Part shown: in pieces, positions 1,171-56,333 of the stretch | Layout of the letters: each line of letters begins with the position of its first letter | Position numbering within the stretch: the stretch's first letter is position 1 | From: Larkinella humicola | Lineage (GTDB): Bacteria; Bacteroidota; Bacteroidia; Cytophagales; Spirosomataceae | Direction: 5' to 3' | DNA length: 64,000 nucleotides | Assembly (NCBI RefSeq): GCF_008727875.1 | Contig: NZ_VTWS01000004.1 | Location: 620,001 to 684,000, forward strand | Notes under the pieces: generated by a model | Database searches by the model: none | The model's input: only the letters and a program-made list of their open reading frames with translations | What the model was told of the DNA's origin: nothing | Position numbers and translations under genes: made by a program

Positions 1171-1255
1171 ACCTCTGATTTTCTCTGATCAACTCTGTGT
1201 AACAATTTAAAGCTATTACACAGAGTTGATCAGGGGAAATCAGAGGTTATCAGGG
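1171..1255. repeat. Intergenic inverted repeat P1 (10-bp ATCAG word family)
   Basis: Left arm 1171-1202 and right arm 1216-1247 match at 30 of 32 positions; both differences can form G-U pairs in RNA. The right side continues as four 10-bp units beginning at 1216, 1226, 1236 and 1246, each ending in CAG(A/G)G. It begins 12 bases after the kinase stop and ends about 11 bases before the regulator start, filling the spacer. The core matches the repeat at 25341-25424. Confidence 0.9.
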
Positions 1256-1266
1256 GAAAATATACA

Positions 1267-1947
1267 ATGCCTAAACTCTTACTGGTTGAAGATGACCCGA
1301 ATCTGGGAATGTTGCTGCAGGAATACCTGAACTCGAAAGGATATGATACCGACTTGGCTATCGATGGCAATCAGGGCTGGCAGCGGTTTGTCGATCATGC
1401 CTATGATCTGTGTCTCTTTGATGTGATGCTCCCGAAAAAGGACGGTTTTTCACTGGCGAAAGAAGTCCGGATGTCAGGCCGGGATGTGCCCATTATTTTC
1501 CTGACCGCCAAGTCGATGAAGGAAGACACCATTCAGGGATTCCGGATCGGGGCCGATGACTACATGACCAAACCGTTCAGCATGGAAGAGTTGCTGCTGC
1601 GGATTCAGGCCATTCTCCGGCGGTATCACAAAACCGAAGAAATGCAGCAACCGGCCACCTACCAGATTGGCTCTTTTTCGTTCGATTTTGCCCACCAGCT
1701 TCTCACCCGCAACGGAACCGACGTCAAACTGACCAGCAAAGAATCTGCCCTGCTCAAATTGTTCGCCCAGAACAAAAACCAGCCGCTCAGTCGGAGTTTT
1801 GCCCTCAAACTCATCTGGGGTGATGATTCGTATTTCAACGCCCGCAGCATGGACGTTTACATCACCAAGCTCCGGAAATACCTGAAGGAGGATGAGTCGG
1901 TGCAGATCGTCAACCTGCACGGCGAAGGATTTAAACTCATGGCGTAA
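1267..1947 (+). CDS. OmpR/PhoB-family response regulator (RprY-like)
   Basis: DNA-binding response regulator, partner of the upstream kinase. The receiver domain covers about residues 1-115, with acidic pair Asp9/Asp10, phospho-acceptor Asp52 in LFDVMLP, Thr80 in FLTAKS and Lys102 in MTKPF. A winged-helix output domain follows at about 130-226, ending in the typical YITKLRKYL recognition region. The length of 226 residues is normal for the family. The gap to the kinase is filled by a long inverted repeat, so the regulator may be expressed at a level different from the kinase even if co-transcribed. Targets are unknown. Confidence 0.95.
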   Translation: MPKLLLVEDDPNLGMLLQEYLNSKGYDTDLAIDGNQGWQRFVDHAYDLCLFDVMLPKKDGFSLAKEVRMSGRDVPIIFLTAKSMKEDTIQGFRIGADDYMTKPFSMEELLLRIQAILRRYHKTEEMQQPATYQIGSFSFDFAHQLLTRNGTDVKLTSKESALLKLFAQNKNQPLSRSFALKLIWGDDSYFNARSMDVYITKLRKYLKEDESVQIVNLHGEGFKLMA

Positions 1948-1960
1948 CGTTTCGGTGTGC

Positions 1961-1968
1961 TATCTTTG
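1961..1968 (+). promoter_or_regulatory. Bacteroidota -7 element for hemB
   Basis: TATCTTTG fits the TAnnTTTG consensus and sits 22 bases before the ATG at 1990. A clear -33 TTG is not seen. It lies inside the longer GTG-initiated reading frame from 1957, which supports 1990 as the real hemB start. Confidence 0.55.
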
Positions 1969-1989
1969 CAGTCAGAAACCAATTGCGTT

Positions 1990-2976
1990 ATGCTACGAAG
2001 ACCCCGCAGAAATAGAAAATCGCCCGTCATCCGGGAACTGGTCCAGGAAAACTTTCTTTCGTTGTCCGACCTGATTTATCCCATGTTTGTGATGGAAGGC
2101 CAGGGCGTTCGCTCCGAAATTACGTCGATGCCGGGGGTTGCCCGGTTTTCGCTCGACTTGTTGCTCGAAGAAATGCAGGAATGCGTCGATCTGGGCTTGC
2201 GAACCTTTGCCCTGTTTCCCAACTTGCCCGAAAGCAAAAAAGATAAATACGCGACGGAAAGCCATAATCCCGCAGGCTTGTATCTGCAAGCCGTAAAAGC
2301 CATCAAGACCCGCTTTCCCGAGATTGCCCTGATGACCGATGTCGCGATGGACCCGTATAGTTCCGACGGCCACGACGGGATCGTAGAAGAAAGCGCGAAC
2401 GGTTTTGAAGTGGTGAACGACGAAACGCTGGTGGTGCTGGCCAAAATGGCGGTGGCGCAGGCCCGCGCCGGTGCCGACATCATCGGGCCATCGGACATGA
2501 TGGACGGACGTATCGGTTACATCCGCGAAGCGCTTGACAAAGAAGGCTTCACCAACGTGTCCATCATGGCCTATACCGCCAAATATGCCGGCGCTTTCTA
2601 TGGCCCGTTTCGCGATGCGCTCGACTCCGCCCCGCGTTTTGGCGACAAGAAAACGTACCAGATGAATCCCGCCAACAGCCGCGAAGCCCTCATCGAAGCC
2701 GAACTGGACTACGCCGAAGGGGCTGATTTCCTGATGGTAAAACCGGCGATGGTGTATCTGGATATCATCAAATTATTAAGCGATAACTTCGACCTGCCGA
2801 TTGCTGCCTACAACGTCAGCGGGGAATACGCGATGGTGAAAGCCGCGGCCGCCAACGGCTGGCTCGACGGCGAACGCGCCATGCTCGAAATTCTGACGGC
2901 CATGAAACGGGCGGGAGCTAAAATTATTCTGACGTATTTCGCGAAGGAAGTCGCCCAACTCCGGAAAAAGGCATGA
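1990..2976 (+). CDS. hemB: Delta-aminolevulinic acid dehydratase (porphobilinogen synthase)
   Basis: Cytoplasmic heme-pathway enzyme that joins two 5-aminolevulinates into porphobilinogen. The 328-residue TIM-barrel protein shows DVAMDPYSSDGHDG in the metal/active-site lid region, the lysine motif MAYTAKYAGAFYGPFRDAL, and the Schiff-base lysine in FLMVKPAMVYLD. The cysteine-rich zinc triad seen in some homologues is not apparent, which suggests the magnesium-dependent class. The start at 1990 (MLRRPRRNRKSPVIREL) is preferred over GTG 1957 because a -7 promoter element lies between them. The stop overlaps the next start by ATGA. Confidence 0.95.
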   Translation: MLRRPRRNRKSPVIRELVQENFLSLSDLIYPMFVMEGQGVRSEITSMPGVARFSLDLLLEEMQECVDLGLRTFALFPNLPESKKDKYATESHNPAGLYLQAVKAIKTRFPEIALMTDVAMDPYSSDGHDGIVEESANGFEVVNDETLVVLAKMAVAQARAGADIIGPSDMMDGRIGYIREALDKEGFTNVSIMAYTAKYAGAFYGPFRDALDSAPRFGDKKTYQMNPANSREALIEAELDYAEGADFLMVKPAMVYLDIIKLLSDNFDLPIAAYNVSGEYAMVKAAAANGWLDGERAMLEILTAMKRAGAKIILTYFAKEVAQLRKKA

Positions 2977-4307
2977 GCACAATTTTGATACGAAATGCGC
3001 GGCTGGTAAACGAAGGTACCATCCGCGAAACCGACGTCTATTGCAAAGACGGTTTTATCGAGCAACTTGGTTCGGGTCTGAGCCAGCCAGCGGATACCAT
3101 CATCGATGCGGACGGTAATTACCTGTTGCCCGGTGTCATCGACGATCAGGTGCATTTTCGCGAACCCGGTTTAACCCACAAAGCGACCATCCATTCCGAA
3201 GCGCGGGCGGCTGTGGCCGGGGGCGTTACGAGTTTCATGGAAATGCCCAACACGGTTCCGAATGTGCTGACGCAGGAATTGCTGGCTCAGAAATACGAGA
3301 TTGCCGCGCGGACATCGCTCGCCAATTATTCGTTTTTTATGGGCGGCTCGAACGACAACCTGGCGGAAGTTCTGAAAACCGACCCGACAACCGTCTGCGG
3401 AATCAAGATTTTCATGGGTTCCTCTACGGGTAATATGCTGGTTGACAACGTGACGGTGCTGGAAGAGGTGTTCCGGCAGAGCCCGATGCTGATTGCGACG
3501 CACTGCGAAGACGAAGCTACCATCCGGGCCAACACCGCCCGGTACAAGGAACAGTATGGCGATGCCGCCACGGCCGCCATTCATCCGCTGGTACGGAACG
3601 AGGAAGCCTGCCTGAAATCGTCGTCGCTGGCGGTGGAACTGGCCAAAAAACATAACACCCGGCTGCACATTCTGCACATTTCGACCGCCAACGAACTGGC
3701 CCTGTTTGACAACACGGTTCCGTTGAAAGAAAAGCGGATTACGGCCGAAGTGTGCGTTCACCACCTGTGGTTCGATGCCGATGATTACGCGCGGCTGGGC
3801 AACCTCATCAAGTGCAACCCGGCCATCAAAGCACCCCATCACAAACCGCAACTCTGGCAGGCGTTGCTCGACAACCGGCTGGACATCATTGCCACCGACC
3901 ACGCGCCCCACACCTGGGACGAAAAGCAGCAACCCTATTGGCAGGCACCCTCCGGTTTGCCGCTGGTGCAGCATCCGTTGTTGATCATGCTGGAAGCCGT
4001 TCAGCAGGGAAAACTGTCGCTGGAAAAAGTGGTGGAAAAGATGTGCCACGCGCCCGCCGATTGTTTTCAGATCGACCGGCGCGGTTATGTTCGGGAAGGC
4101 TACTGGGCCGATCTGGTGCTGGTGGACCCGAAACAGAAAACCGAAGTTGCCAAAGAAAACATTCAGTACCAGTGCGGTTGGTCACCCCTGGAGGGAACGG
4201 TTTTCGGTACGGGCATTACTCATACGATTGTTTCCGGGCACCTGGCTTACGCCAATGGACAGTTTAACGATACAGTAACGGGAAAACGGTTATATTTTGT
4301 CCGGTAA
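2973..4307 (+). CDS. pyrC: Dihydroorotase
   Basis: Amidohydrolase of de novo pyrimidine synthesis, interconverting carbamoyl-aspartate and dihydroorotate. The 444-residue sequence shows PGVIDDQVHFREPG at the N-terminal metal site, the carboxylated-lysine motif GIKIFMGSSTGN, histidines in IATHCED and LHILHIS, and the late aspartate in IATDHAPHT. The first site reads QxH where class I enzymes usually have HxH; I believe this is common in Bacteroidota homologues, but it should be checked. Its ATG overlaps the hemB stop by four bases, implying translational coupling. A strong terminator follows. Confidence 0.92.
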   Translation: MSTILIRNARLVNEGTIRETDVYCKDGFIEQLGSGLSQPADTIIDADGNYLLPGVIDDQVHFREPGLTHKATIHSEARAAVAGGVTSFMEMPNTVPNVLTQELLAQKYEIAARTSLANYSFFMGGSNDNLAEVLKTDPTTVCGIKIFMGSSTGNMLVDNVTVLEEVFRQSPMLIATHCEDEATIRANTARYKEQYGDAATAAIHPLVRNEEACLKSSSLAVELAKKHNTRLHILHISTANELALFDNTVPLKEKRITAEVCVHHLWFDADDYARLGNLIKCNPAIKAPHHKPQLWQALLDNRLDIIATDHAPHTWDEKQQPYWQAPSGLPLVQHPLLIMLEAVQQGKLSLEKVVEKMCHAPADCFQIDRRGYVREGYWADLVLVDPKQKTEVAKENIQYQCGWSPLEGTVFGTGITHTIVSGHLAYANGQFNDTVTGKRLYFVR

Positions 4308-4341
4308 TAAAAAAGGCCGACTTTCCAGTCGGCCTTTTTTT
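4308..4341 (+). terminator. Rho-independent terminator after pyrC
   Basis: Stem GGCCGACT (4315-4322) pairs with AGTCGGCC (4327-4334) around a TTCC loop, with A-run and T-run flanks. It closes the hemB-pyrC unit and can act in both directions. Confidence 0.92.
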
Positions 4342-4359
4342 ACTATGTATTTCGCTTGG

Positions 4360-4554
4360 TCACGCTAACCTTCGTCGGTAAAAACATCGGTTGAGAATAG
4401 ACAGGTATAAATTACTGAACTTCTCATAACACCAGGATTTTAATTGTTTCACCTCCTCGGGAATCAGGAGACCGATTGCTTTTTTTAATTCCTTCTCAAA
4501 CAATTTCTTGTCAAAGCTTACTTTCTGAAGGATAGTCTTGATGTACTCCAGCAT
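4360..4554 (-). CDS. Small conserved-looking hypothetical protein, 64 aa
   Basis: Product unknown. The protein is lysine-rich with two predicted amphipathic helices (LEYIKTILQKVSFDKKLFEK, then KQLKSWCYEKFSNLY) and no signal or membrane segment. It resembles short uncharacterised proteins I recall from Cytophagales with a similar MLEYxKTILQKVSFD start, but this is memory, not a search. ATG 4554 is preferred over 4563 because such proteins begin MLEY. It stands alone, transcribed toward pyrC, with the bidirectional pyrC terminator at its 3' side. It is more than a shadow ORF because no other gene covers the stretch and its composition is protein-like. Confidence 0.6.
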   Translation of the reverse strand: MLEYIKTILQKVSFDKKLFEKELKKAIGLLIPEEVKQLKSWCYEKFSNLYLSILNRCFYRRRLA

Positions 4555-4679
4555 TGTTGCCATACCACATACTACGGTTTTTTTGGTTAGAGTTTTGAGG
4601 AGCTACTCCACATTCAAAAGATGTCCGGCAGAATCGGAAATGATCCGTCGGCATCTCTAAAATTGTAACGCATTCTATA

Positions 4680-4687
4680 TATTTTTG
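4680..4687 (+). promoter_or_regulatory. Candidate -7 element upstream of the BatD-like gene
   Basis: TATTTTTG matches TAnnTTTG and ends 16 bases before the ATG at 4704. The nearest upstream TTG (4663-4665) is only 14 bases away, shorter than usual, so this is a moderate call. Confidence 0.4.
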
Positions 4688-4703
4688 TTGCTCAAATTTA
4701 GAG

Positions 4704-6113
4704 ATGAAATTTCTAAAATTCCAATTTTTAGTTGCATTATTTTTTTATGGCTTACTGAGCATGAAAGCGTTAGCTCAGGAGCCGTCGATTTCTATTGATT
4801 TGGGTGAAACGGACATTTCGATTGAACGGCCCTTTACCATTTCCGTTGTCATAAAAAACAGCGATTCCCGGCCTGTGGTCAACTTTCCTGCCATAAAAGG
4901 CTTCATTAAAAAAGGAACGGTCACCAGTGTTTCACCGGCCGAAATGAATGGAAAAACCGTTGTTTCACAAGTGATTACCCAATCATATGCCGCTATACGT
5001 CCCGGCCAGTTCCGGGTGCCTCCCTTTGAACTGATCGTGGGCGAAACAACGATTCAATCGGAAGAGGTCATCATTACCGTCAAACCGCAACTTACTCCCG
5101 GCGATACCGTCAGGGCGGTGGCTGCTCCCCCCGAAACGATCGCCAAAAACGACGTTTTTCTGTCGTTAAGTACCTCAAAAAGCTCAGTTTACACTGGCGA
5201 GGGATTTTCGCTAAAATTGTCTTTTTTCGTGGCCGAATCCTATCCATTCGAGTTAACATTTTATGAACTTGATCAGCAGTTGCAACAACTTCTGAAAACA
5301 TTGCGCCCGGCCAATTGCTGGGAAGAAAATGAAGGAATAACCGACCTGTCGCGGCATACGGTTTTTTTCAACGGCAAGCGCTACGCCGAATACCGCATCT
5401 ACCAGGCTACCTTTTTTCCGCTCAATAAGCAATCCATCCAGATTCCGTCGGTTCGGTTGAACCTGCTGCAATACCGCCCGGCGGCCAAACCGGGGGGCGA
5501 ACGCAAAAAAGAAATGGTAGCCTATGCAACTCGTCCCCTTTCCGTAAGCGTTACGCCCCTGCCGGTCCACCCGCTTCGCGATCAGGTGGCTGTCGGACAA
5601 TACCGGCTGATTGAAACGAGCCTGCGAAAAAATCCCGCCGTTGGGCAGAGTGTCCAGTATAATTTCCGAATTACAGGCGAAGGAAATATCGCATCCCTGC
5701 CCGCTCCGGTGGTGCCCGACTCCGCGACGTTCGATATTTTTCCCCCGGGTGAAAAAACTGTCATCAACCGGAGCAACGGCATCGTTTCGGGCTACAAAAC
5801 GTTTTCCTACGCCCTCATTCCCCGCCAGAACGGCAACTTTCCCCTGGCGTCTTTTTTTCAGTGGATTTATTTCGACCTGAAACAGCAGCGGTATGACACT
5901 TTGCGATCGGCCATTACGTTACGGGTTGGCGGAACGGCCTTGCCCGAAGGCGATACCGTGCAGGTGAGTCTGCCGGGTTCAATCTATACCGGCATCGAGC
6001 AAACCGATAGTTCGCAGCAGCCGGTCAATTTACAGGAAATGCTTCGATTGCTGGTAAATATCCTGCTGGTCGGCATGATTGTGGGAATGATGTATTTATT
6101 TTGGAGAAAATAA
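4704..6113 (+). CDS. BatD-like protein (oxygen-tolerance family)
   Basis: Exported, membrane-anchored protein of 469 residues. A Sec signal peptide spans about 1-25 (ending KALAQ), followed by several beta-rich domains typical of the BatD family, and a single C-terminal membrane helix at about 447-466 with a short basic tail (FWRK). BatD proteins in Bacteroidota are usually encoded in bat operons with MoxR-type ATPase and VWA proteins and were named for aerotolerance in Bacteroides; their molecular role is unsettled. Here the gene is solitary, followed by an inverted repeat and aroC. The family call rests on overall architecture and early motifs such as SxDLGETDISIERPFTISV. Confidence 0.75.
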   Translation: MKFLKFQFLVALFFYGLLSMKALAQEPSISIDLGETDISIERPFTISVVIKNSDSRPVVNFPAIKGFIKKGTVTSVSPAEMNGKTVVSQVITQSYAAIRPGQFRVPPFELIVGETTIQSEEVIITVKPQLTPGDTVRAVAAPPETIAKNDVFLSLSTSKSSVYTGEGFSLKLSFFVAESYPFELTFYELDQQLQQLLKTLRPANCWEENEGITDLSRHTVFFNGKRYAEYRIYQATFFPLNKQSIQIPSVRLNLLQYRPAAKPGGERKKEMVAYATRPLSVSVTPLPVHPLRDQVAVGQYRLIETSLRKNPAVGQSVQYNFRITGEGNIASLPAPVVPDSATFDIFPPGEKTVINRSNGIVSGYKTFSYALIPRQNGNFPLASFFQWIYFDLKQQRYDTLRSAITLRVGGTALPEGDTVQVSLPGSIYTGIEQTDSSQQPVNLQEMLRLLVNILLVGMIVGMMYLFWRK

Positions 6114-6116
6114 GCG

Positions 6117-6201
6117 TAGACAAGAGAGGTTAGACAAGAGAATAAAGAAAGGTCAGCAGCGGGTTTTTAGTCTCACGTCTCTTGTCTATCCTCTCACATC
6201 T
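6117..6201. repeat. Intergenic inverted repeat P2 (AGACAAGAGA family)
   Basis: The word TAGACAAGAG occurs at 6117 and again 14 bases later at 6131. Arms 6125-6141 and 6178-6194 match at 16 of 17 positions. It starts right after the batD-like stop and ends 8 bases before aroC. The same word recurs at 8741, 49491 and 56272 in unrelated operons. Confidence 0.85.
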
Positions 6202-6209
6202 GGAACAAA

Positions 6210-7298
6210 ATGAGCAGTACATACGGAACGCTTTTTAAAATAGCCACATTTGGTGAATCGCACGGCGCAGCGATCGGCGTGATCATCGACGGTTGCCCGG
6301 CGGGCTTGGAAGTAGACACGGCTTTCATCCAGTCGGAGTTGGATCGCCGGAAACCGGGCCAGTCGCGAATCACGACGCAACGGCGTGAGAAAGACGAATT
6401 TCAGGTGCTTTCCGGCATTTTCGAGGGAAAAACCGAAGGCACACCCATCAGCCTGGTCATCTGGAACGAAGACCAGCGCAGCAAAGATTATTCGCACATC
6501 TCCCAGCAATTCCGTCCTTCCCACGCTGATTATACCTACCAGGAAAAGTACGGTGTACGCGACTACCGGGGCGGTGGCCGTAGTTCTGCCCGCGAAACAG
6601 CCGCTCGTGTGGCTGCCGGAGCGCTGGCCAAATTGCTGTTGAAACAACAGGGTGTCAGCATTCAGGCGTATGTGTCGCAGGTCGGGAAACTGAAGCTCGA
6701 AACCCCGTATCAGCAACTCGAACTGGCAAAGGCCGAGGAAAATGCCGTTCGGTGCCCCGATCCGGAACTGGCGCAGCAAATGTTCGACTACATCGATGAA
6801 ACCCGCAAGCAGGGGGATTCCATCGGGGGCATCGTGTCGTGTGTCATCACGGGCGCTCCAGCAGGTTGGGGAGAGCCGGTTTTCGATAAACTGCACGCCG
6901 AACTGGGCAAGGCCATGTTGAGCATCAATGCCGTAAAAGGCTTCGAATACGGCAGCGGTTTTGCCGGCGTCGAATTGCATGGCTCGGAACACAACGATGA
7001 ATTTTACATCGAACCGGGCGACGAAACCGGGCGCGTTCGGACCAGGACGAACCATTCCGGCGGGATTCAGGGTGGAATTTCCAACGGCGAGGATATTTAT
7101 TTTCGGGTTGCTTTCAAACCCGTGGCTACCATTATGCAGGATCAGGATAGTGTGGATGTCAACGGCGACCCGGTGGTGGTTTCGGGCAAAGGACGGCACG
7201 ATCCCTGCGTGGTTCCGCGCGCCGTTCCGATTGTGGAAGCCATGGCCGCGCTGGTGCTGGCCGACTTTTATTTGCGGAACAAAGGGGCGAAGGTGTGA
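6210..7298 (+). CDS. aroC: Chorismate synthase
   Basis: Last step of the shikimate pathway: converts 5-enolpyruvylshikimate 3-phosphate to chorismate using reduced FMN. The 362-residue protein shows the family signatures [20 protein letters not shown] near the N-terminus, RPSHADYTY at about 107-115, [18 protein letters not shown] at about 124-141, and the C-terminal [17 protein letters not shown]. Length is normal. The ATG at 6210 opens directly on the conserved YGTLFKI segment, so the start is firm. A GTGA overlap with the next frame at 7295 raises possible coupling to apbE. Confidence 0.97.
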
Positions 7299-8365
7299 AG
7301 TTGAAATTTACCCCCAACCCCCTGAAGGGGGCTTTAGAAAAGCCGGAGGTTAAAGCCCCCTTCAGGGGGTTGGGGGCAAAAGCAGTGGTACTTTCGCTAT
7401 GCTTCACGCTGATTGGCTGGAAGAATGTTGCCCAGCCACTCCAGCGGTACACCTTCGACCGGGGACTGTTCGGGACCGAATTCCGGCAGATTTTTTACGC
7501 GCCCAACGACCGTATTGCCCAAGAGGTTCGCCGGGCGGTCGATGCCCGGATGGATTCGCTCAATGTCATCATGAGTGATTACCTGGACGGCAGCGAAATC
7601 AACCGGTTATCGGCCACGGCAGGTTCGGGTCAATGGGTGTCAGTCTCCCCGGATTTGTTCGACATCCTCAGCCGGGCAGTTGCCATTGCCAAAGCCTCCG
7701 ACGGGTTGTTCGACCCCACCATCGGACCACTGTCGCAACTCTGGCGCCGGGCCGTTCGGCGCAAAATCTTTCCCACAAAACCCGAACTCCGAAAGGCCCA
7801 CCAACGGGTCGATTACCGGTTGATCGAATTGAAAAAACCGGGTTTTGTACGGTTGAAAAAACCGGGTATGCGGCTGGATGTGGGCGGTATTGGACAGGGA
7901 TATGCCATCGATGAGGGACTGAAAGTGCTTCAGCAGTTGGGCATCAAATCGGCTTTGCTGGATATCGGGGGCGATATTCTGGTGAGTGACCCACCGCCGG
8001 GCGAACGCGGCTGGCGGATTCTGATCGGGGCTGCTGCCGATACGACGACCTTGCTTCTCCGCCAGGTGGGCATCACAACTTCGGGCGCCACGCACCGGTA
8101 TCTCGAACACAACGGCAAACGGTATTCACACCTGATGAATCCGCGGACGGGTCTCGGACTGCTTCACCACGCCCAGACGACGGTTTTAGCACCCGATGGC
8201 ACACAGGCTGATGCCCTCACCAAAGTCTTCAGTGTCGCGGGAATTCAGAAAAGCAAGCGGCTGATAAAACGGTTTCCTGGCGTAAGCGTCTGGATTACGG
8301 AAGAACGAAATGGGAAATTGAAGAAATGGAGTTCGGTTACTTCGACGTCGCCATCACCATTTTGA
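7295..8365 (+). CDS. apbE: FAD:protein FMN transferase (ApbE family)
   Basis: Likely attaches FMN covalently to threonine in flavoproteins such as RnfG/NqrC types. Motifs: [61 protein letters not shown] and the metal-binding QADALTKVF. The start is uncertain. GTG 7295 overlaps the aroC stop, but then residues 6-28 are encoded by a palindromic repeat (7311-7376). GTG 7385 gives a 326-residue protein beginning [12 protein letters not shown], a hydrophobic export-like segment without the usual basic residues. The 3' end overlaps the convergent exbD gene by 29 bases. Confidence 0.88.
7311..7376. repeat. Inverted repeat P3 (CCCCCTGAAGGGGG family) across apbE 5' end
   Basis: Perfect 26-bp arms at 7311-7336 and 7351-7376 around a 14-base loop. 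Each arm also holds the inner palindrome CCCCCTGAAGGGGG or its complement form. The element is open in the apbE frame. A diverged copy is at 19671-19736. Confidence 0.95.
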
Positions 8366-8729
8366 TGTTCAGTTTGGCCCCGGTTTGCAGCACATCGACC
8401 AGATCCTGAACGGCCAGGGTTTTATCGACCCGTACCACAATCGTTGGTTCAGCCACATCTTTCAACACCGATTTCAGTTCCATCTCCAGGTTTTCGGGAG
8501 CAATGGGCGTTTTATCGATGAAATACTGCTTCTGACCATCGACCGACAACGTCACCTGTTTCTTGCTCAATTGCTGCGAAGAGGCCGCTTTGGGAAGCAA
8601 CAGCTTGATTACATTGGGGTTCGCTACCGTCGAAATGATCAAAAAGAACAACAGCAGGAAAAACATGATGTCGTTCAGGGAGGAGGTAGCAACCTCGGCG
8701 GCAAACTTATGTTTTCTTCGGAATTTCAT
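8337..8729 (-). CDS. exbD: ExbD/TolR-family biopolymer transport protein
   Basis: Inner-membrane component of an ExbB-ExbD proton channel that powers outer-membrane work. The 130-residue protein has a short basic cytoplasmic start (MKFRRKHKF), one membrane helix at about 20-38 with the family aspartate just before it (SSLNDIMFFLLLFFLI), and a periplasmic domain ending near residue 130. It is transcribed after the exbB gene at 8821-9522, from which it is separated by an inverted repeat. No tonB follows here. A second, larger exb locus lies at 28898-31848. Confidence 0.92.
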   Translation of the reverse strand: MKFRRKHKFAAEVATSSLNDIMFFLLLFFLIISTVANPNVIKLLLPKAASSQQLSKKQVTLSVDGQKQYFIDKTPIAPENLEMELKSVLKDVAEPTIVVRVDKTLAVQDLVDVLQTGAKLNIKMVMATSK

Positions 8730-8740
8730 TATTGGAGAGG

Positions 8741-8812
8741 AAAGACAAGAGACAAGAGATAAAAGACCGTACCCTACGTTGTCTTTACTCTCTTGTCTAT
8801 TCTCTCTTGTCT
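8741..8812. repeat. Intergenic inverted repeat P4 (AGACAAGAGA family)
   Basis: Left part 8741-8767 and right part 8781-8812 are imperfect reverse complements built from repeated GACAAGAGA words. It fills the exbB-exbD spacer, lying 9 bases from the exbB stop. Same family as 6117-6201. Confidence 0.82.
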
Positions 8813-8820
8813 GGTTAAAC

Positions 8821-9522
8821 TTATCTAACTCTGGCGGCTTCAGTCGGTTTTTGCAACACTTCCATAAATTCGAACGAGTTGATTTCCAGCTTCAGCGTGA
8901 ATTTTTCAATGAACATGTTCAGCAGGTGGTAGCCGGTGTAGGCTATAACCCCTACGATCAGACCGGCACCGGACGTGATCATTTTTTCGTACAGACCACC
9001 GGCGATGATGCCGACACTGATGTTGTCAGACAGCGAAATATCGTAGAAAATCCGGATGATCCCCGAGATCGTCCCAATGAAACCTAGCATCGGTGCAATA
9101 CCGGCAATAATTCCCAGGTAGCCCAGATTCTTTTCCAGCCGCGACAACTCGATTTGTCCGACGGTTTCCAGCGTTCCTTCAATTTCCCGAATCGGTGAAC
9201 CGATGCGGCCAACGGCTTTTTCAAAAATTCGTCCGATGGAATTCCGCTGGTTTTTGCAGAATGACTCGGCCGATTTGATGTTGCCCTGCAAAACCATGTC
9301 TTTCACATTGTCGATAAAATTATCGTCGACCTTCGTATTGTTCCGAATGAACAGCCAGCGTTCGATAATCATGTACAAGGCGAAAAAAAACAGGAGAGAG
9401 ATCGGAATCATGACCCAGCCCCCTTTGGCGACCAGATCGAATAATTGCATGCTTTGGGCCGGGGCTACTGCCGTGGAATCGACGGCCGGAGCACCAGCCG
9501 TTGGAACTTGTAATAGAATCAT
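8821..9522 (-). CDS. exbB: MotA/TolQ/ExbB proton channel family protein
   Basis: Proton-channel subunit paired with the ExbD encoded downstream. The 233-residue protein has a first membrane helix at about 36-53, a cytoplasmic segment, and two further helices around 135-160 (LGYLGIIAGIAPMLGFIGTI) and 180-203. The conserved small-residue and threonine pattern of the family is visible in GFIGTISGIIRIF. ATG 9522 is followed by a periplasmic N-terminal tail rich in Ala/Pro. It probably shares a transcript with exbD, with repeat P4 between them. Confidence 0.92.
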   Translation of the reverse strand: MILLQVPTAGAPAVDSTAVAPAQSMQLFDLVAKGGWVMIPISLLFFFALYMIIERWLFIRNNTKVDDNFIDNVKDMVLQGNIKSAESFCKNQRNSIGRIFEKAVGRIGSPIREIEGTLETVGQIELSRLEKNLGYLGIIAGIAPMLGFIGTISGIIRIFYDISLSDNISVGIIAGGLYEKMITSGAGLIVGVIAYTGYHLLNMFIEKFTLKLEINSFEFMEVLQKPTEAARVR

Positions 9523-9624
9523 GTGCTATGAATCAGATAAATCGGTTTTACTGGTTGCCATGGAACCGGAGCCGAGCAAACGTCTTCGTTCTCAACGTCC
9601 TCCCCGCCGGATTTATTGTCTTCA

Positions 9625-9723
9625 AACCCTGTCAGCGGTCGCAGACCCTGACAGCGGTTTAGAGACGTGTTTTACTATATCGTAGCCAAAACCCTGTCAG
9701 GGTCTGCGACCGCTGACAGGGTT
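9625..9723. repeat. Nested inverted repeat P5 (CTGTCAG family)
   Basis: Perfect 30-bp arms at 9625-9654 and 9694-9723 with a 39-base loop. Each arm is itself a smaller inverted repeat with CTGTCAG and CTGACAG ends around a 12-base centre, so a cruciform or RNA could fold at two scales. It lies upstream of exbB and downstream of the oxidoreductase gene, both on the minus strand. Confidence 0.96.
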
Positions 9724-9781
9724 CGTGACGGTTGTTCAAATATAACGAAACAATAAGCAGAATAGTCAGAAAAGTTACTGA

Positions 9782-10753
9782 CTAGACCTTAATCAAAATC
9801 TTGCCGTGTCGGCCAGCCTGTTCGCTGTGTTCAACAGCTTTTTTAATTTCCGAAAGCGGATACGTCGCTTCAACCGGCACCTGAATCTGTCCACCAACGA
9901 GCAGCGTGATTACATTGCGGGCCACGTTCTGCCGCGTTTGGCTGTCGACCCGGCGCATCCAGTCGGTGAGCCAGAAACCTTTGATGGTAAGTTCCCGGAA
10001 AATCATCAGGCCTACGTTGAAAGACGGATTTTGCATGCTCAGCACCCCGTAGAGAATCATGGTACCCCCTTTCGCCAGACATTTCAGCGCGTCGGAGGCC
10101 GTGTTGCCACCCACCGCTTCCAGCACACAGGTTACGCCTTTGCCTTCCGTGAGGGCTTTCACCCGGTTGGTCAGTTTTTCTTTTTCCGTATTGACGATGG
10201 CCGTAATGCCCAGCGCTTTCAGCTCGTCGTCAAGTTCATTGTGCCGAACCGTACCGATGGTTTGAATGCCTTTGAGTTTACACAACTGAATCACGAGCTT
10301 GCTAAACGATGATCCGGCGGCTGTCAGCAGCACCCATTGTCCCGGTTGAAGGCCCGACTCTTCCAACATGGCGTAGGCCGAAAACGGATTGACGAACAAC
10401 TGGGCGGCCACCTCATCCGAGAGCGCGTCCGGCACCGGAATTAAACTGCGCTGGTTGGCCAGCACATACTCCGACCAGGCTCCGATGGCCGTAAAACTCA
10501 CCCGAATACCGGTGCGCATCGTGACGCCTTCCCCCAGTGCATCGACAATGCCAACGCCTTCGAAACCCGCGCCCGAGGGTAATTCGGGCTGAATGCCGTA
10601 CAGATTCTGCACGAACATCAGATCCGAGGGATTGATCGGGCTGGCGATGACTTTGATCCGGACTTCGCCGGGACCGGGTTCGGGCAGGAAGGTATCGATG
10701 ACCTGGAGCGTGTCGGCAGGTTTACCGATGGTTGAGAAGTTGACCGTCTGCAT
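9782..10753 (-). CDS. Zinc-free MDR oxidoreductase, enoyl reductase/quinone oxidoreductase-like
   Basis: NADPH-dependent medium-chain reductase, probably acting on enoyl-thioesters or quinones; the substrate is unknown. The 323-residue protein has an N-terminal GroES-like domain (ASPINPSDLMFVQNLYG is typical of the MECR/ETR1 enoyl-CoA reductase branch) and a Rossmann domain with VLLTAAGSSFSKLVIQLCK as nucleotide-binding region. The cysteine ligands of zinc alcohol dehydrogenases are not seen. ATG 10753 is chosen over 10807 because a -7 promoter element occupies 10797-10804 and the homologous N-terminus begins near MQTVNFSTIG. Confidence 0.85.
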   Translation of the reverse strand: MQTVNFSTIGKPADTLQVIDTFLPEPGPGEVRIKVIASPINPSDLMFVQNLYGIQPELPSGAGFEGVGIVDALGEGVTMRTGIRVSFTAIGAWSEYVLANQRSLIPVPDALSDEVAAQLFVNPFSAYAMLEESGLQPGQWVLLTAAGSSFSKLVIQLCKLKGIQTIGTVRHNELDDELKALGITAIVNTEKEKLTNRVKALTEGKGVTCVLEAVGGNTASDALKCLAKGGTMILYGVLSMQNPSFNVGLMIFRELTIKGFWLTDWMRRVDSQTRQNVARNVITLLVGGQIQVPVEATYPLSEIKKAVEHSEQAGRHGKILIKV

Positions 10754-10796
10754 GGATACGACAAAAGCAATGGTGTGCGAAATATCACTTATTCGA

Positions 10797-10804
10797 CAAA
10801 AGTA
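10797..10804 (-). promoter_or_regulatory. -7 element for the MDR oxidoreductase
   Basis: Read on the minus strand this is TACTTTTG, matching TAnnTTTG, 43 bases before the ATG at 10753. No good -33 element is apparent. Confidence 0.5.
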
Positions 10805-10857
10805 CAATGCAATCCGTAGTTACTGACCGGATAATAGGTCAGAATGAACAAACTTTC

Positions 10858-10865
10858 TATTTTTG
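10858..10865 (+). promoter_or_regulatory. -7 element for the HupE-like gene
   Basis: TATTTTTG matches TAnnTTTG and lies 53 bases before the ATG at 10919, in a divergent promoter region shared with the minus-strand oxidoreductase. Confidence 0.5.
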
Positions 10866-10918
10866 CGGCACAATGCCAACCGGCTCCCACCGGCAACTAA
10901 CCAACCGAAACCGATCTT

Positions 10919-11518: not shown

Positions 11519-11715
11519 CGGCACTACGGCTGTCAAACCGGCCAAATGCTGGTTTTCAGGCTTTTTTACGCCGAAAGAAACTAGGAAAATAACAGGGATA
11601 AATAGAAACTTTAGCAGCATTGCGGTTCCCGGCAACCGTTCAATAGATATTGTTTGGCGGTTTTTAGTAACTTCATAGCCATATTCATCTACAAATTATA
11701 TTCTGATACCTAACT

Positions 11716-14118: not shown

Positions 14119-14216
14119 AAACAATCATGAACAATGAATTTGCTCCAAAGTAATTTGGGGACAAATCGAGATTCTTTCGGCGCGATTTATTGTTCATTAT
14201 TCATTATTCATTAAGT
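14119..14216. repeat. Weak inverted repeat P6 (AATGAACA words)
   Basis: Short words resembling ATGAACAATGAAT near 14127-14140 recur in reverse complement at 14186-14213 (TTCATTATTCATT). The match is degenerate, so this is the least certain of the intergenic palindromes. It separates the peptidase gene from tRNA-Pro. Confidence 0.45.
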
Positions 14217-14228
14217 TTGCACCCGATT

Positions 14229-14302
14229 CGGGATGTAGCACAGCCAGGTAGTGTACTTGCATGGGGTGCAAGGGGTCGTGGGTTCGAATCCCGCCATCCC
14301 GA
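14229..14302 (+). tRNA. tRNA-Pro (anticodon GGG)
   Basis: A 74-base cloverleaf. Acceptor CGGGATG (14229-14235) pairs with CATCCCG (14295-14301), with discriminator A14302. The anticodon arm is CTTGC-ATGGGGT-GCAAG, putting GGG at positions 34-36. The T arm reads GTGGG-TTCGAAT-CCCGC. The C1 start and GGG anticodon fit proline. CCA is not encoded. Confidence 0.96.
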
Positions 14303-14314
14303 CTGAATTGGGCC

Positions 14315-14352
14315 AAAAGGCAGTCAGATCATGAATCTGACTGCCTTTTTTT
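14315..14352 (+). terminator. Terminator after tRNA-Pro
   Basis: A 15-bp stem (14315-14329 with 14335-14349) around a five-base loop, followed by T residues. Strong intrinsic terminator; also faces the 3' end of the minus-strand phosphatase gene. Confidence 0.92.
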
Positions 14353-14382
14353 GTTGGCGAACTATCCGGTTTTTAAAATTTG

Positions 14383-18688: not shown

Positions 18689-18770
18689 GGAACGCGGATG
18701 TAATGGATCAAAACGGATTTTCACAGATAAAATCCGTTTTGATCCATTACATCCGTCTAATCCGTGTTCC
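18689..18770. repeat. Inverted repeat P7 (ATCCG word family)
   Basis: Perfect 27-bp arms at 18695-18721 and 18729-18755 with a seven-base loop, extended imperfectly to 18689 and 18770. ATCC(G/A) words start at 18732, 18742, 18751 and 18760, a spacing of 10, 9 and 9. It fills the spacer between two minus-strand genes. Confidence 0.96.
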
Positions 18771-19649: not shown

Positions 19650-19670
19650 GGGAAAAGTAGTTTAGTATTT

Positions 19671-19736
19671 ACCACCAACCCCCTAAAGGGGGCTTTCAAC
19701 GCGGGATCAAAAAGCCCCCTTCAGGAGGTTGGTGGT
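19671..19736. repeat. Inverted repeat P8 (CCCCCTxAAGGGGG family)
   Basis: Arms 19671-19696 and 19711-19736 match at 24 of 26 positions around a 14-base loop, the same arm and loop lengths as the copy at 7311-7376. The end touches the SDR stop codon (19738-19740). Confidence 0.93.
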
Positions 19737-19737
19737 A

Positions 19738-22656: not shown

Positions 22657-22738
22657 TTTCGCAGAGTTAAGCGGAGTTAAAAAGAGTTTATCAGAGGCTC
22701 CGCTTGACTCTTTTTTTTCTCCGCTTAACTCTGCGAAA
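22657..22738. repeat. Inverted repeat P9 (GAGTT, 10-bp period)
   Basis: Perfect 20-bp arms at 22657-22676 and 22719-22738. GAGTT starts at 22664, 22674 and 22684 and GAG at 22694, an exact 10-bp period. It begins 4 bases after the uxuA stop and fills the uxuA-aguA spacer. Confidence 0.93.
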
Positions 22739-23948: not shown

Positions 23949-23983
23949 TTCTACTCTATTGTTTGTTTTACGTTTAATACCCT

Positions 23984-24020
23984 AAAAGAGGCTAAAAATG
24001 ACGAAATTTCAGCCTCTTTT
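23984..24020 (-). terminator. Hairpin between enolase-superfamily gene and uxuA
   Basis: Ten-bp stem (24011-24020 with 23984-23993, AAAAGAGGCT/AGCCTCTTTT) with a 17-base loop, ending in four T residues on the minus strand. Weak terminator or attenuator within the cluster. Confidence 0.55.
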
Positions 24021-24048
24021 GCGGTGTTAAGGATGCGCTTTTCATGGG

Positions 24049-25340: not shown

Positions 25341-25424
25341 TTACACAGAGTTTATCAGAGGTCATCAGAGTTTACCAGAGATTTCTTTGATTAACTCTGA
25401 TTTCCTCTGATAAACTCTGTGTAA
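25341..25424. repeat. Inverted repeat P10 (CAGAG word, exact 10-bp period)
   Basis: Left arm 25341-25381 and right arm 25384-25424 match at 36 of 41 positions, with the outer 21 perfect. The left arm is four 10-bp units starting at 25341, 25351, 25361 and 25371, each ending CAGAG. The core is shared with the repeat at 1171-1255. Confidence 0.95.
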
Positions 25425-26477: not shown

Positions 26478-26516
26478 GGACACGGTTTTGGCGATGGTTG
26501 TGCCAAAACCGTGTCC
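26478..26516. repeat. Perfect hairpin P11 in divergent region
   Basis: Arms of 15 bp (26478-26492 and 26502-26516) around nine bases. Shorter words TTGTCCGG/CCGGACA flank it at 26475 and 26541 and could pair alternatively. The only palindrome of the set placed between divergent genes. Confidence 0.93.
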
Positions 26517-41767: not shown

Positions 41768-41807
41768 ACAAAGCGGGTCTTTCATTCCGGTGGAAGACCC
41801 GCTTTGT
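41768..41807 (+). terminator. Hairpin after second esterase-like gene
   Basis: Stem 41768-41781 with 41794-41807 and a 12-base loop. There is no clear T-run, so it may be a weak terminator or an RNA-stability hairpin. Confidence 0.6.
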
Positions 41808-42869: not shown

Positions 42870-42990
42870 TTGAATGGGATACGGTTTTAATGGCTAAATG
42901 GTTTTTATGGTTAATGTCCATCTGAAAATTTGTAACCATTTTAACCATTTAGCAAGTTAACCATTCAACCATCAGAACCATTCAGCAATT
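42870..42990. repeat. Inverted repeat P12 in nuoB-nuoC spacer (AACCATT words)
   Basis: AACCAT words start at 42934, 42943, 42959, 42967 and 42976 (spacing 8-9 or a multiple), mirrored by AATGGT/AATGGC words in the left half (42873-42914). The match is degenerate but covers the spacer, starting at the nuoB stop. Confidence 0.8.
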
Positions 42991-43509: not shown

Positions 43510-43510
43510 G

Positions 43511-43615
43511 GATGGCTTAAAATGAAGGGATGGTCTGATGGCTAAAAATGGTTAAATGGCTTAGGAATTATATTTTAACCATGTTAACCGTCCAACCATT
43601 TTCAACCATCCATTG
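43511..43615. repeat. Inverted repeat P13 in nuoC-nuoD spacer (ATGG/CCAT words)
   Basis: ATGG words start at 43512, 43530, 43538, 43548 and 43556 (steps of 8-10 in the right part), mirrored by AACCAT/CAACCAT words at 43577-43612. Same word family as 42870-42990. It begins right after the nuoC stop. Confidence 0.82.
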
Positions 43616-43630
43616 ATAATTCAAAGTTTC

Positions 43631-44878: not shown

Positions 44879-44906
44879 AACCCGGTTAAAAGGGAAAGGA
44901 GGGAGT

Positions 44907-53455: not shown

Positions 53456-53481
53456 AGATATAATAAGTGACCTCTATACGT

Positions 53482-54864
53482 TTACTTTCCTCTTCCCTGC
53501 ACCATGACGCGGACGGTTTGGACAATGAGCCACACGTCGGTTGAGAGAGAAACATTTTGCAGATATTCAAGGTCGTACCACAGTCGCTGCACCATCTGCT
53601 CAACATTTTCGGCATAGCCGAATTTGATTTGTCCGATGGAGGTAATACCGGGTTTGACCATCAGCAAATACTTGTATTCCGGCGATTTCTCGACGATTTG
53701 ATTAATGAAATACTGCCGCTCCGGGCGAGGCCCAACCACCGACATATCCCCTTTCAGTACGTTGTAAAACTGGGGGAATTCGTCAAGACGCGTTTTTCGC
53801 ATGAACTGGCCCCAGGGAGTAATGCGGTCGTCGTTGTCGCCCGATGACAGAGCCGGACCACCCCGTTCGGCATCGGGATACATGCTGCGAAACTTGTAAA
53901 TCCGAAACGGTTTGCCCCACTTCCCAATCCGCTCCTGCGAATAAAAAGCCGGTCCTCTCGAACTGAATTTGGTTATGAGTGCAATAATAAGGAAAAATGG
54001 CGCACCAGCCGCCAGCACACTCGCCGAGAAAGCAATGTCGAAAGTCCGTTTGAATACGTTCACCTGCAAATCATCCAGGTAGTGAGTCGACAGGCTAATC
54101 ACTGGCTGAACATCGTGGTATTCAACCGTCACGCCTTTCGTGAGGAACCCTTTGAAGTCGACAATCAGCTTCACCTGGTAGCTGGCTTCCTCCGAAAAGT
54201 TCATAATGTCACGCAACTGCTCGGTTTCAATGTAGGGCAGACAGCAATAAACGCAGTCAATTTCGTTGCGGGTGATGAATTCTTTCAGGTAATTGTAATC
54301 TCCCCGCAGTGCGGTGGCATTCTCGGCGTTCATTTTATCAAAATACCCGTAAAATTTGAACCCAATTTCCGGATACATCTGGTAGAACGTCTGAATGCTC
54401 CGGGAAAGCGGCCCGTAGCCTACCACCACAAACCGCCGGGTGTTGTAGCCCATTGCGCGGTAGACCTTCAGCAGAATGAGCACCACCGAGCGCCAGAGCG
54501 AACCGGCACACAGAAACAGGACATACGTTAGGGCAAGCTGCTCGCGGGAATAATCAAAACCGCCCTTCGTGAACACCCAGAAAACCGACACCAAGGCAAT
54601 GTGAAGCCCAACCAGTTTGGCAAGACCCACCAGCAGATTTTGGATCGTAAACGTTAGCCGGGAAAAGTTATAGGGCTTATTGAGCAATAAAATCAAAAAC
54701 CAGGCTGCGTTAATGAACCAGAAGAGGGTAACGTAGGGAGCATCGAATAAAGACGCTGTAGAACCAAATTTGAGCCGGTAGGCAAGGGCAAAGCAGATAT
54801 CCAGAGAGATGATATCCATCGTTGCGCTAAAAGGCCGCAATAAAAAAGAAAACCGGTGTTTCAT
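53482..54864 (-). CDS. WcaJ-like initiating sugar-phosphate transferase
   Basis: Starts repeating-unit synthesis by moving a hexose-1-phosphate onto undecaprenyl phosphate. 460 residues: N-terminal membrane helices (about 5-130) and a CoA-binding-like region, then the bacterial sugar transferase domain from about 265 with FKRTFDIAFS, IYKFRSMY, TRLDEFPQF and SVVGPRPE. ATG 54864 (MKHRFSFLLRPF) is preferred to 54870. Confidence 0.92.
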   Translation of the reverse strand: MKHRFSFLLRPFSATMDIISLDICFALAYRLKFGSTASLFDAPYVTLFWFINAAWFLILLLNKPYNFSRLTFTIQNLLVGLAKLVGLHIALVSVFWVFTKGGFDYSREQLALTYVLFLCAGSLWRSVVLILLKVYRAMGYNTRRFVVVGYGPLSRSIQTFYQMYPEIGFKFYGYFDKMNAENATALRGDYNYLKEFITRNEIDCVYCCLPYIETEQLRDIMNFSEEASYQVKLIVDFKGFLTKGVTVEYHDVQPVISLSTHYLDDLQVNVFKRTFDIAFSASVLAAGAPFFLIIALITKFSSRGPAFYSQERIGKWGKPFRIYKFRSMYPDAERGGPALSSGDNDDRITPWGQFMRKTRLDEFPQFYNVLKGDMSVVGPRPERQYFINQIVEKSPEYKYLLMVKPGITSIGQIKFGYAENVEQMVQRLWYDLEYLQNVSLSTDVWLIVQTVRVMVQGRGK

Positions 54865-55124
54865 AAGCAATTCGTTTGGAACAGCCGCTGCACGTGCAGA
54901 TTATAAAACTGCCAGACCGCTCCCTCGCTTGAATTTGTGACAAATGAAAGACACTTAGTATAAACAGAGCGTGTAACACTAACTCTTTATTAACTCCAAG
55001 TTCACTTTATTTGTACGATTATTGGCAAAAATTTATTGAAAAATGCGCTAATATTTATCCTAAGGACTCGTTGTTTTTATCATTCTTGCGATTGTGCCAT
55101 TTAATAATCAGATAGTTAAAGGCC

Positions 55125-56252
55125 CTACTCCGCCGAAAACCATTCGGTTGTTTTTCGGGTTACGTAGCGATCAAACTCCTGACGAAAAGTTTCACGACTA
55201 AACCGCTGCGCGTGTTCGTGAATGACAACCGGGTCGAACTGATCGATGCTTCGTTCAAACCGCTGCACGCATTCGGTGAGTGAATCGACCTGTTGCCGGT
55301 CGAAAAACAGTCCGGTTTTCTGATCCATCACCGACTCCAGCACCCCGCCTTTTCCGTAGGCCAGCACCGGCGTTCCGCAGGCCTGGGCTTCCACGGGCGT
55401 GATCCCGAAATCCTCTTCGGCAGCAAACAGAAACGCTTTGGCCTTCTGCATATACGAAATCAGCACGGCGTCGGATTGGTAGCCGACCAACTCAATGTTG
55501 GGCGTTGCCAGCCGTTTAATTTTTTCAAAGTCCGGGCCGTCGCCCACCACCACCAGGCGTTTGTCGGGCATGGTCGAAAATGCTTCTACAATCAAATTTA
55601 TTTTTTTGTAGGGAACCATCCGCGAAGCCGTCAGGTAATAGTTTTCTTTCTGCGCACAGAGCGCAAATTTCCCGGTATCGACGGGCGGATAGATCACATC
55701 GGCATCGCGACCGTACACTTTCCGGATTCGGCGGGCAATATAGCGGGAGTTGGCGACAAAATAATCAACCCGTTGGGCCGATTGATAATCCCACAGCCGA
55801 ATGTAGTGCAAAATTAATTTGGCCAGGGCCCCACTCACCCCGGTTTTGAGACCGCTTTCGCTCAGGTATTGGTGGTACAAATCCCAGGCATACCGCATGG
55901 GCGAGTGGCAATAGCAGATGTGAAGCTGGTTGGGGCCGGTCAACACGCCCTTCGCCACAGCATGGCTGCTCGACACCACCACGTCGTAGGCACTCAGATC
56001 GAACTGCTCGACAGCCAGTGGCATGAAGGGCAGGTAGGTGCGGTATTTTTTTTTCGCCCACGGCAGTTTCTGAATAAAACTCGTCGTAGCGGTTTTATTC
56101 AAAATCAGGGGGCGTTGCGAGTCGGGCAGAAAGTCGACCAGGGCGAACAGATCACTTTGCGGATAAAGTTGCAGGATTTGTTCGACCACGCTTTCGGAAC
56201 CGGCAAACGTAACCAGCCATTCGTGCACCAGGGCGACTTTTTTATCAAGCAT
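55125..56252 (-). CDS. Glycosyltransferase family 4
   Basis: Cytoplasmic GT-B-fold transferase of 375 residues adding a sugar to a lipid-linked exopolysaccharide unit. N-terminus MLDKKVALVHEWLVTFAGSE; donor-binding features include VVVGDGPDFEKIK and the E-x7-E motif in AAEEDFGITPVEAQACG. The longer frame to 56381 starts in repeat P16 and is rejected. 254 bases separate its stop (55125) from the WcaJ-like start; that gap holds nothing I can name. Confidence 0.9.
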   Translation of the reverse strand: MLDKKVALVHEWLVTFAGSESVVEQILQLYPQSDLFALVDFLPDSQRPLILNKTATTSFIQKLPWAKKKYRTYLPFMPLAVEQFDLSAYDVVVSSSHAVAKGVLTGPNQLHICYCHSPMRYAWDLYHQYLSESGLKTGVSGALAKLILHYIRLWDYQSAQRVDYFVANSRYIARRIRKVYGRDADVIYPPVDTGKFALCAQKENYYLTASRMVPYKKINLIVEAFSTMPDKRLVVVGDGPDFEKIKRLATPNIELVGYQSDAVLISYMQKAKAFLFAAEEDFGITPVEAQACGTPVLAYGKGGVLESVMDQKTGLFFDRQQVDSLTECVQRFERSIDQFDPVVIHEHAQRFSRETFRQEFDRYVTRKTTEWFSAE

Positions 56253-56255
56253 TTT

Positions 56256-56333
56256 TGAGAATAAAGAAGCGAGACAAGAGAAGTAAGATTTTGTCAAACT
56301 CCCTAATCTCTGGTCTATTATCTTTTGTCTGAA
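56256..56333. repeat. Inverted repeat P16 (AGACAAGAGA family) at GT gene end
   Basis: AGACAAGAGA at 56272-56281 and CAGACAAAAGATAA-type complement at 56317-56331 form an imperfect hairpin. The stop codon of the upstream glycosyltransferase (56318-56320) is inside the right arm. Confidence 0.75.

Follow-up and report, generated by a model that had tools for sequence, protein, structure and literature searches.

Intergenic palindromes at gene 3′ ends in Larkinella humicola, with a possible role of template switching or fold-back copying in the matching of their arms

Introduction

The described systems nearest to the elements treated here are the REPINs, the short tandemly repeated repetitive (STRR) sequences of cyanobacteria and quasipalindrome mutation, and none of them fits fully. 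The elements are long intergenic palindromes of Larkinella humicola (Spirosomataceae; genome of 7.86 Mb), many of them with arms built of tandem words of 7-10 bp. The nuoH gene of this genome has its best matches in Fibrisoma, Spirosoma and Fibrella, which fits a placement in the Spirosomataceae. They are described from a stretch of 64,000 bp, called here the window (positions 620001-684000 of contig C15), from a larger part of the same genome, and from its relatives. We argue that they are palindromes of gene 3′ ends whose arms probably stay matched through template switching or fold-back copying, one arm being copied onto the other, as comparison of orthologous sequences suggests.

STRRs, known from heterocystous cyanobacteria, are direct repeats of heptamers, and were reportedly treated by Vioque in 1997. 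The elements of L. humicola resemble them in carrying short tandem 7-mers in intergenic DNA, with several word types in one genome. Unlike these direct arrays, the arms here are inverted copies of each other, part of them are capped by a shared tip, and the words range from 7 to 10 bp. A heptamer-like repeat, csR1.1, is listed in a further source (PMC2408588). The TAACTGA repeats of Beggiatoaceae, Cyanobacteria and some Bacteroidetes (PMC4679880) are also intergenic heptamers, patchy across phyla and, like our elements, missing in close relatives at some junctions; they differ in consisting of a single word, in direct orientation, and in lying, for the most part, right before start codons in the main genome.

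The repetitive extragenic palindromic (REP) sequences, with the bacterial interspersed mosaic elements (BIMEs) and REPINs, are likewise short, many-copy, hairpin-forming intergenic palindromes. According to two reports, REPs lie mostly downstream of genes, between unidirectional or convergent ORFs, and compensatory changes occur in REPINs (PMC3116915; PMC3733652). REPs share a conserved sequence and a neighbouring REP-associated tyrosine transposase (RAYT), whereas the word families of L. humicola vary from copy to copy and none was seen to flank the seven RAYT hits of its genome. Finally, studies of quasipalindrome or template-switch mutation describe arm homogenisation, spacer inversion and the creation of perfect stems (PMC8794818; PMC8604942), loop inversion together with arm homogenisation being the signature of a switch between inverted repeats (PMC8604942). 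Both mirrored homogenisation over several bases and spacer inversion are found here, although that work concerns a mechanism of mutation, in RNA genes and in coding DNA of yeast, and not the upkeep of hundreds of word palindromes. Literature searches, judged mainly from titles and abstract openings, gave no paper recognised as a description of such elements in the Spirosomataceae.

Sequences and scoring

The sequence read amounts to 1,261,815 bp: the entire contig C15 of 721,815 bp, to which the window belongs, and 540,000 bp from contig C13. Inverted repeats were scored with +1 for a match and -1 for a mismatch, with a loop of up to 60 and a cut-off of at least 18; dinucleotide shuffles, three of the intergenic and one of the coding sequence, served as controls. 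Genes were called with a home-made hexamer caller, which leaves some error in the spacer classes. Seven of the eight genus mates (G001-G008, with G006 left out) were compared by gene junction. The tip and GC-module patterns used below were picked after examples had been seen.

Abundance and word structure

At this cut-off we found 175 inverted repeats, 169 of them intergenic and 6 coding, against none in the shuffles; equal frequency in coding sequence, which an earlier note on the window had named as a test, is thus not the case. Scaling by length alone, the genome would hold some 1,100. The arms of the 169 intergenic elements are up to 79 bp long, with a median of 33 bp. Among 160 arms of at least 20 bp, 82 have a significant period with respect to their own shuffles at p<0.05 (54 at p<0.01), compared with 11 of 160 control intergenic stretches, the significant lags being 7 (43 arms), 10 (21), 9 (10), 8 (6) and 5 (2). 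The short periods reported in the earlier note therefore stand well above controls, while their supposed exactness does not hold: Tandem Repeats Finder gave matches of 89% at 1221-1259 of the window, 76% at 25341-25380 and 90% at 51292-51318, and no row at 22664-22696.

When the 169 elements are grouped on the similarity of their arms, they fall into families of 38, 30, 23, 12, 8, 6, 5, 5 and 3, four of 2, and 31 singletons. Word types include GAGTTAA, AATGATG, GTTTACG, GACAAGAGA, CGGAGTTGAG and ACGGATTGA; other palindromes, such as CCCCTAAATCCCC, AACCCTGACAGCGG, CCGGAGG and AACCGTTTTAACGGTT, lack clear words. In 123 elements the two arms match each other better than they match any other element, and 13 are ties.

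Words differ between genera, though some are common to several. The sequence CGGAGTTNAGCGGAG has 61 copies in L. humicola and one or two in 3 of the 147 other genomes sampled from the order, and its family also occurs in G004. In turn, GAGTTAAGAGTNAAGAGTT, made of GAGTTAA words, is carried by 7 of the 61 family genomes, which represent 5 of 36 genera, so the idea that each word is private to one genus had to be dropped. Around the nuo genes, the density of long inverted repeats per 10 kb is 1.20 for Spirosoma and its near genera, as against 0.32-0.36 for the other groups except one Siphonobacter locus, which stands at 1.90; samples of further genera range from 0 to 2.0, those of G033, G058 and G046 having been picked around pattern hits and being biased upward.

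Changes mirrored between the arms

Sequence comparison indicates joint rewriting of the two arms at the DNA level. At C15 642639 (window 22639), GC modules of 15 and 16 bp stand at mirror positions of both arms in G003, a 15-bp one is present in the left arm alone in G004, and neither arm has one in L. humicola, G007, G008, G001 or G002. At 333109, both G003 arms carry a 16-bp module which is in neither arm of L. humicola or G004. The element at 537396, absent from G003, shows two mirrored differences between L. humicola and G004, including a 16-bp insertion, the loop being the same in both and the flanks nearly so; at 465722 a module occupies both G004 arms and L. humicola has a different one in a single arm. 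Furthermore, over 68 alignable orthologous pairs, 85 paired Watson-Crick changes were counted, compared with 27.6 ± 4.2 (maximum 41) in within-element permutations.

The loops tell a similar story. Among the 97 junction pairs with usable loops, alignment at p<=0.002 was reached by 21, of which 15 (13 junctions) keep the same orientation and 6 (5 junctions) are inverted, the other pairs being unrelated or unclear. The inversions are clear at C15 298638, 638585 and 686207, while those at 349052 and 642639 fall within word sequence and might be an effect of where the arm boundaries lie. At the window junction 18695-18755, the G007 loop is inverted relative to those of both G003 and G004. The 13-nt loop of the first element of the window (1171-1247, P1) also fits G003 better when inverted (11 vs 5), and it is absent from the pairs at p<=0.01.

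Nested in palindromes is a GC-rich module of 15-16 bp resembling CGGGGCCGCCCGTGCG, found at C15 302033, 465760 and 537424, and also on C13 at 52673, 106553, 151080, 394308, 403628 and 478015. Its nine full-length variants have no coding and 18 intergenic matches in 1.26 Mb, some perhaps counted twice; for the short core CGGGGCCGCC, 7 matches are coding and 6 intergenic. This module may be a very small mobile element.

Occupied junctions and exchanged words

Junction occupancy is conserved. Between L. humicola and G004, whose genes are 93% identical, 228 junctions comprise 28 with a palindrome in both, 10 in L. humicola only, 15 in G004 only and 175 in neither, with 7.2 shared expected from the margins; for G003 the 201 junctions divide into 19, 17, 14 and 151, with 5.9 shared expected. 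Arm identity in the 28 elements shared with G004 is at least 0.89 in 14, 0.85 in one and below 0.80 in 13, eight of these last having flanks at 0.87-0.96; the 95 spacers that lack an inverted repeat are 93.1% identical. From this bimodal distribution it follows, as a tendency, that elements are either kept or changed wholesale. An apparent divergence of the arms down to 64% between genomes with genes 93% identical turned out to be inflated by unequal arm boundaries, the bimodal picture being that of proper alignment. Arm identity lies below that of the flanks with respect to G007 (5 pairs) and G008 (10 pairs).

At single junctions the words are exchanged as sets. At 621160 (window 1171), CAGAG-type words are found in L. 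humicola, G003 and G001 and CGGAG-type words in G004, with the same inside-out arrangement in both; at 645318 (window 25318) the CAGAG type occurs in L. humicola, G005 and G001 and the CGGAG type in G004, G007, G003 and G008. The G004 family also differs from that of L. humicola at 379189, where flanks are 95% identical, and at 432472, where they have diverged. The junction 18695-18755 holds GTTTACGG words with a GGCTGACGC tip in G008 and no palindrome in G001. Further away, a palindrome lies directly upstream of nuoH at the nuoG-nuoH junction in 4 of the 29 loci read from relatives in the Cytophagales, each with other words. In another genus, one convergent junction bears three palindromes with different words in G016, G062 and G205, two of them sharing the tip, and the conserved frames of both genes stop at the palindrome, directly at the two stop codons. 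A second junction in that genus (L279) showed no alignable palindrome in its relatives.

Tips or half tips resembling GGCTGACGC..GCGTCAGCC are present in 27 of the 169 elements, where shuffled cores would give 0.9, and they sit on GAGTTAA, GTTTACG, AATGATG and AATGAGTG words among others. Seven of the 61 family genomes, belonging to four genera, have matches to the pattern AGTTGGCTNNCGC..GCGNNAGCCAACT (25 places in G062, 22 in G016, 9 in L. humicola, 7 in G003, and 3, 3 and 1 elsewhere); its reversed control matches nowhere, and the genus mates G001 and G006 have no match. In the stretches read, the tip goes mostly with GTCTAAAGTTTAAAG-like words in G016 and G062, with GTTGTAG words in G060 and with others in G061. 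The arms are at least 90% matched in 15 of 19 such stretches, a count that excludes L282, which holds no element; L279 has perfect 47-bp arms without words.

Elements of the window

The window contains about 17 long intergenic inverted repeats, in some ten sequence families by eye, at or near the places first given for it, where roughly 16 repeats and at least seven unrelated families had been proposed. At a score of at least 13 there are 22 repeats, terminators among them, plus one more at 56256. The elements, in window coordinates, are the following:

1171-1247: P1, word palindrome of CAGAG-type 10-mers with inside-out polarity (TTACAC words at the loop)
6117-6195: word palindrome, GACAAGAGA words; common to G004, G008 and G001, with some words altered
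7307-7380: palindrome of the CCCCCAACCCCCTGAAGGGGGC family, also given as CCCCCAACCCCC; 8 bp past the stop of the gene at 6210-7298
8736-8812: word palindrome, GACAAGAGA words
9625-9723: palindrome of the AACCCTGTCAGCGG family, also given as CCCTGACAGCGG; in G004 and G008, the spacer being without one in G003 and G001
14123-14201: weak word palindrome, ATTCATT with period 7, between a gene and tRNA-Pro
18695-18755: word palindrome, ACGGAT words, perfect 27-nt arms
19670-19737: palindrome of the CCCCCAACCCCC family; also in G004 and G008, with short spacers lacking one in G003, G007 and G001
22657-22738: word palindrome, CGGAG words
23974-24030: inverted repeat without words, shared with G007; membership uncertain
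25341-25424: word palindrome, CAGAG words
42886-42960: word palindrome, ATGGTT words
43537-43610: word palindrome, ATGGTT words
49485-49533: word palindrome in the nuoG-nuoH spacer, GACAAGAGA words
51291-51367: word palindrome of GTTTAAG 7-mers, between two genes of the 4Fe-4S and Oxidored_q3 families, which we take to be nuoI-like and nuoJ-like
56256-56332: weak word palindrome, GACAAGAGA words; arm ends set by eye

P1 has 52 matches in its own genome, counting itself and both orientations. Around 51291 (window 51287-51369), G003, G004 and G007 have an empty nuo spacer of 9-10 bp; in L. humicola, G005, G008, G001 and G002 this spacer measures 66-87 bp and holds a palindrome; the end of the upstream gene in L. 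humicola resembles the G005 allele, which suggests allele exchange.

Several other repeats are not counted as members. The perfect 15-bp inverted repeat GGACACGGTTTTGGC at 26478-26516, between divergent genes and partly retained in G007, is probably an operator, although the earlier note had listed it with the rest (as P11). Hairpins with T-runs at 4309, 14315, 27091, 34879 and 39434 look like terminators. The hairpin at 41768-41807, followed by a conserved TGTTGATAAATCC, is a separate case and may be a conserved regulatory hairpin: each of the seven genus mates examined retains it, G001 and G002 with both arms altered together. An Rfam search returned tRNA as the sole match at gathering scores.

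Mobile palindromes

The elements could be non-autonomous mobile palindromes of several families, REPIN-like or of the kind of miniature inverted-repeat transposable elements (MITEs), moved by a transposase acting in trans and with words that are only internal drift. We consider this unlikely, even though it would account for families with tens of copies, for base sequences that recur in some of them (e.g., TTTCGCGGAG and GATGGGAACGCGG) and for empty sites in relatives, and though the genome itself has seven Y1_Tnp (RAYT) hits and the 3′-end location matches that reported for REPs (PMC3733652). In the loci around these hits (L071-L077, about 3.2 kb each), no 7-10 bp word family was recognised. 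The palindromes there are of other kinds, namely AACCGTTTTAACGGTT by L071, CCGGAGG..TTAATAG by L075 and others at L072, L074 and L077, with none at L076; the exception is a single CCCCTAAATCCCC element on the edge of L075. On these flanks, RAYT was ruled out as the mover of the word families. A conserved core of the REP type exists in the CCGGAGG and AACCGTTTTAACGGTT families and not in the word families, near-identical copies being absent from the sole family searched, in which the best other copy reached 87%. No target duplication was recognised by eye at 21 junctions, where no systematic search was made. Moreover, mirrored changes inside one element would require an extra process anyway.

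The REP-like families AACCGTTTTAACGGTT (L071) and CCGGAGGGGTTTTCTGTTAATAG (L075), which adjoin two RAYT hits, are probably a true REP layer, separate from the word palindromes. Near another hit, L073 has tandem 18-bp units of GACCGAGGGCTCCGACGA at 2030-2417. An origin through reverse transcriptase (RVT_1) was also considered and discarded, as no match to PF00078 at E<=0.001 occurs in the genome.

Place after genes and RNA pairing

Selection could also act on RNA, retaining any palindrome, regardless of its sequence, that forms a hairpin at a transcript 3′ end as an mRNA stabiliser or terminator. The place of the elements and the persistence of occupied junctions while sequences change are both in keeping with it. 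Elements occur in 48 of the 147 convergent gene pairs, in 106 of the 677 co-directional pairs and in 11 of the 147 divergent pairs (p=6.6e-6 for convergent vs co-directional, p=0.009 for co-directional vs divergent), and in co-directional spacers they start at a median of 8 bp past the upstream stop codon, 76 of 108 lying within 20 bp of it where random placement in the same spacer expects 55.5. The closeness to stop codons reported in the earlier note is thus borne out. Its preference for co-directional spacers is not: the convergent class, whose equal frequency had been set as a test, is the richest in 1.26 Mb, and its absence from the window is due to the few convergent pairs there. The placement rule should read "after genes" instead of "between co-directional genes".

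Selection on RNA pairing should favour G-U pairs. In co-directional elements with a score of at least 16, arm mismatches on the sense strand amount to 106 G-U and 100 A-C (54:50 in word-built and 42:39 in other elements of the score-18 set), and in the relatives to 84:111, against 13:1 in 23 terminator-like hairpins. Because G-U and A-C are about equal here whereas terminators show 13:1, the arms are apparently not kept matched by RNA pairing, and these wobble counts, with the paired changes, led us to reject RNA selection as the arm keeper. A T-run, expected of an intrinsic terminator, is present in just 2 of 108 co-directional elements. Nor is there a sign that palindromes replace terminators in convergent spacers, with a terminator in 4 of 38 that have a palindrome and 10 of 61 that lack one (p=0.56, an underpowered comparison). 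Two palindromes (49485 and 51291) lie between genes of the nuo operon, named by Pfam families, and are therefore unlikely to be strong terminators, and one of them is missing from three genus mates. Taken as an explanation of the elements, RNA-hairpin selection thus seems rather improbable. The earlier reading of them as mRNA hairpins fails for the matching of the arms, while protection or ending of transcripts is a possible benefit.

Lastly, ordinary slippage microsatellites or low-complexity drift, palindromic by accident, can hardly be credited, since for all the 7-10 bp units whose number varies between orthologues, shuffles yield no such repeats, and mirrored insertions of GC modules that are not words, together with the shared tip, speak against it.

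A copying model for the palindromes

The reading that we favour, and hold to be probable, is that template switching or fold-back copying keeps the arms matched. A hairpin would form directly after a stop codon and, during replication or repair, the polymerase would change template, so that one arm is copied onto the other; a change, an inserted module or a new word in one arm would then appear as its mirror image in the other, sometimes with the loop flipped. Words of 7-10 bp would be gained or lost through unequal copying, or slippage, and whole word sets at a junction would be replaced via ectopic recombination between copies, or by a transposition step, and words would thereby drift apart between genera. 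The elements would survive mainly at gene 3′ ends because insertions are not tolerated in coding sequence and promoters. The suggestion made at the outset of one common generating process, leaving footprints of templated palindrome formation, gains support from the mirrored insertions, paired changes, inverted loops and word swaps at the same junctions. The palindromes persist although the genome has a gene matching the nuclease subunit SbcD.

Several observations weigh against this model. One-sided changes (219) outnumber the 85 paired ones and double non-pairing changes number 24; 33 of the 169 elements have an arm better matched by another element than by its own partner; and, among the 82 word-built elements, 61 have a 5′ arm rich in G and poor in C while 7 are C-first, which the model does not predict. 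No recent donor was found for one swapped-in element, no other copy in its genome exceeding 87% identity. In 5 of the 13 replaced elements of the G004 comparison the whole spacer has diverged (flanks at 0.45-0.67), and these therefore need not be swaps at a fixed site. With respect to G003, arms at about 0.82 and flanks at 0.79 show no extra divergence of the arms, which goes against a simple "fast-evolving" reading. Furthermore, the 68 orthologous pairs and the 97 loop pairs are not independent, as one junction can recur with several relatives, and the terminator control is a small one, taken from the same sequence. Recombination between the arms, or selection on DNA structure, could keep the arms matched instead.

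A more tentative view, possible though doubtful, goes beyond the copying model. The elements would form a class without a sequence of its own, with a conserved hairpin tip (GGCTNNCGC..GCGNNAGCC) that primes fold-back copying and arms made of whatever words the lineage currently has. Such a class would be defined by symmetry and by its place after genes, its arms being replaceable wholesale at the same junction.

Significance

If the copying model holds, a part of bacterial intergenic DNA would be shaped by a copying process in which the two arms of a hairpin are rewritten jointly, and this process would mimic compensatory evolution, which is usually read as proof of a functional RNA. Caution is thus called for before such hairpins are called RNA genes. 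With many loci in each genome, the palindromes of L. humicola and its relatives would serve as a natural system for the direct reading of template switching, loop inversion and word turnover, and they raise the question of what spreads the vocabulary of 7-10 bp words of a lineage.

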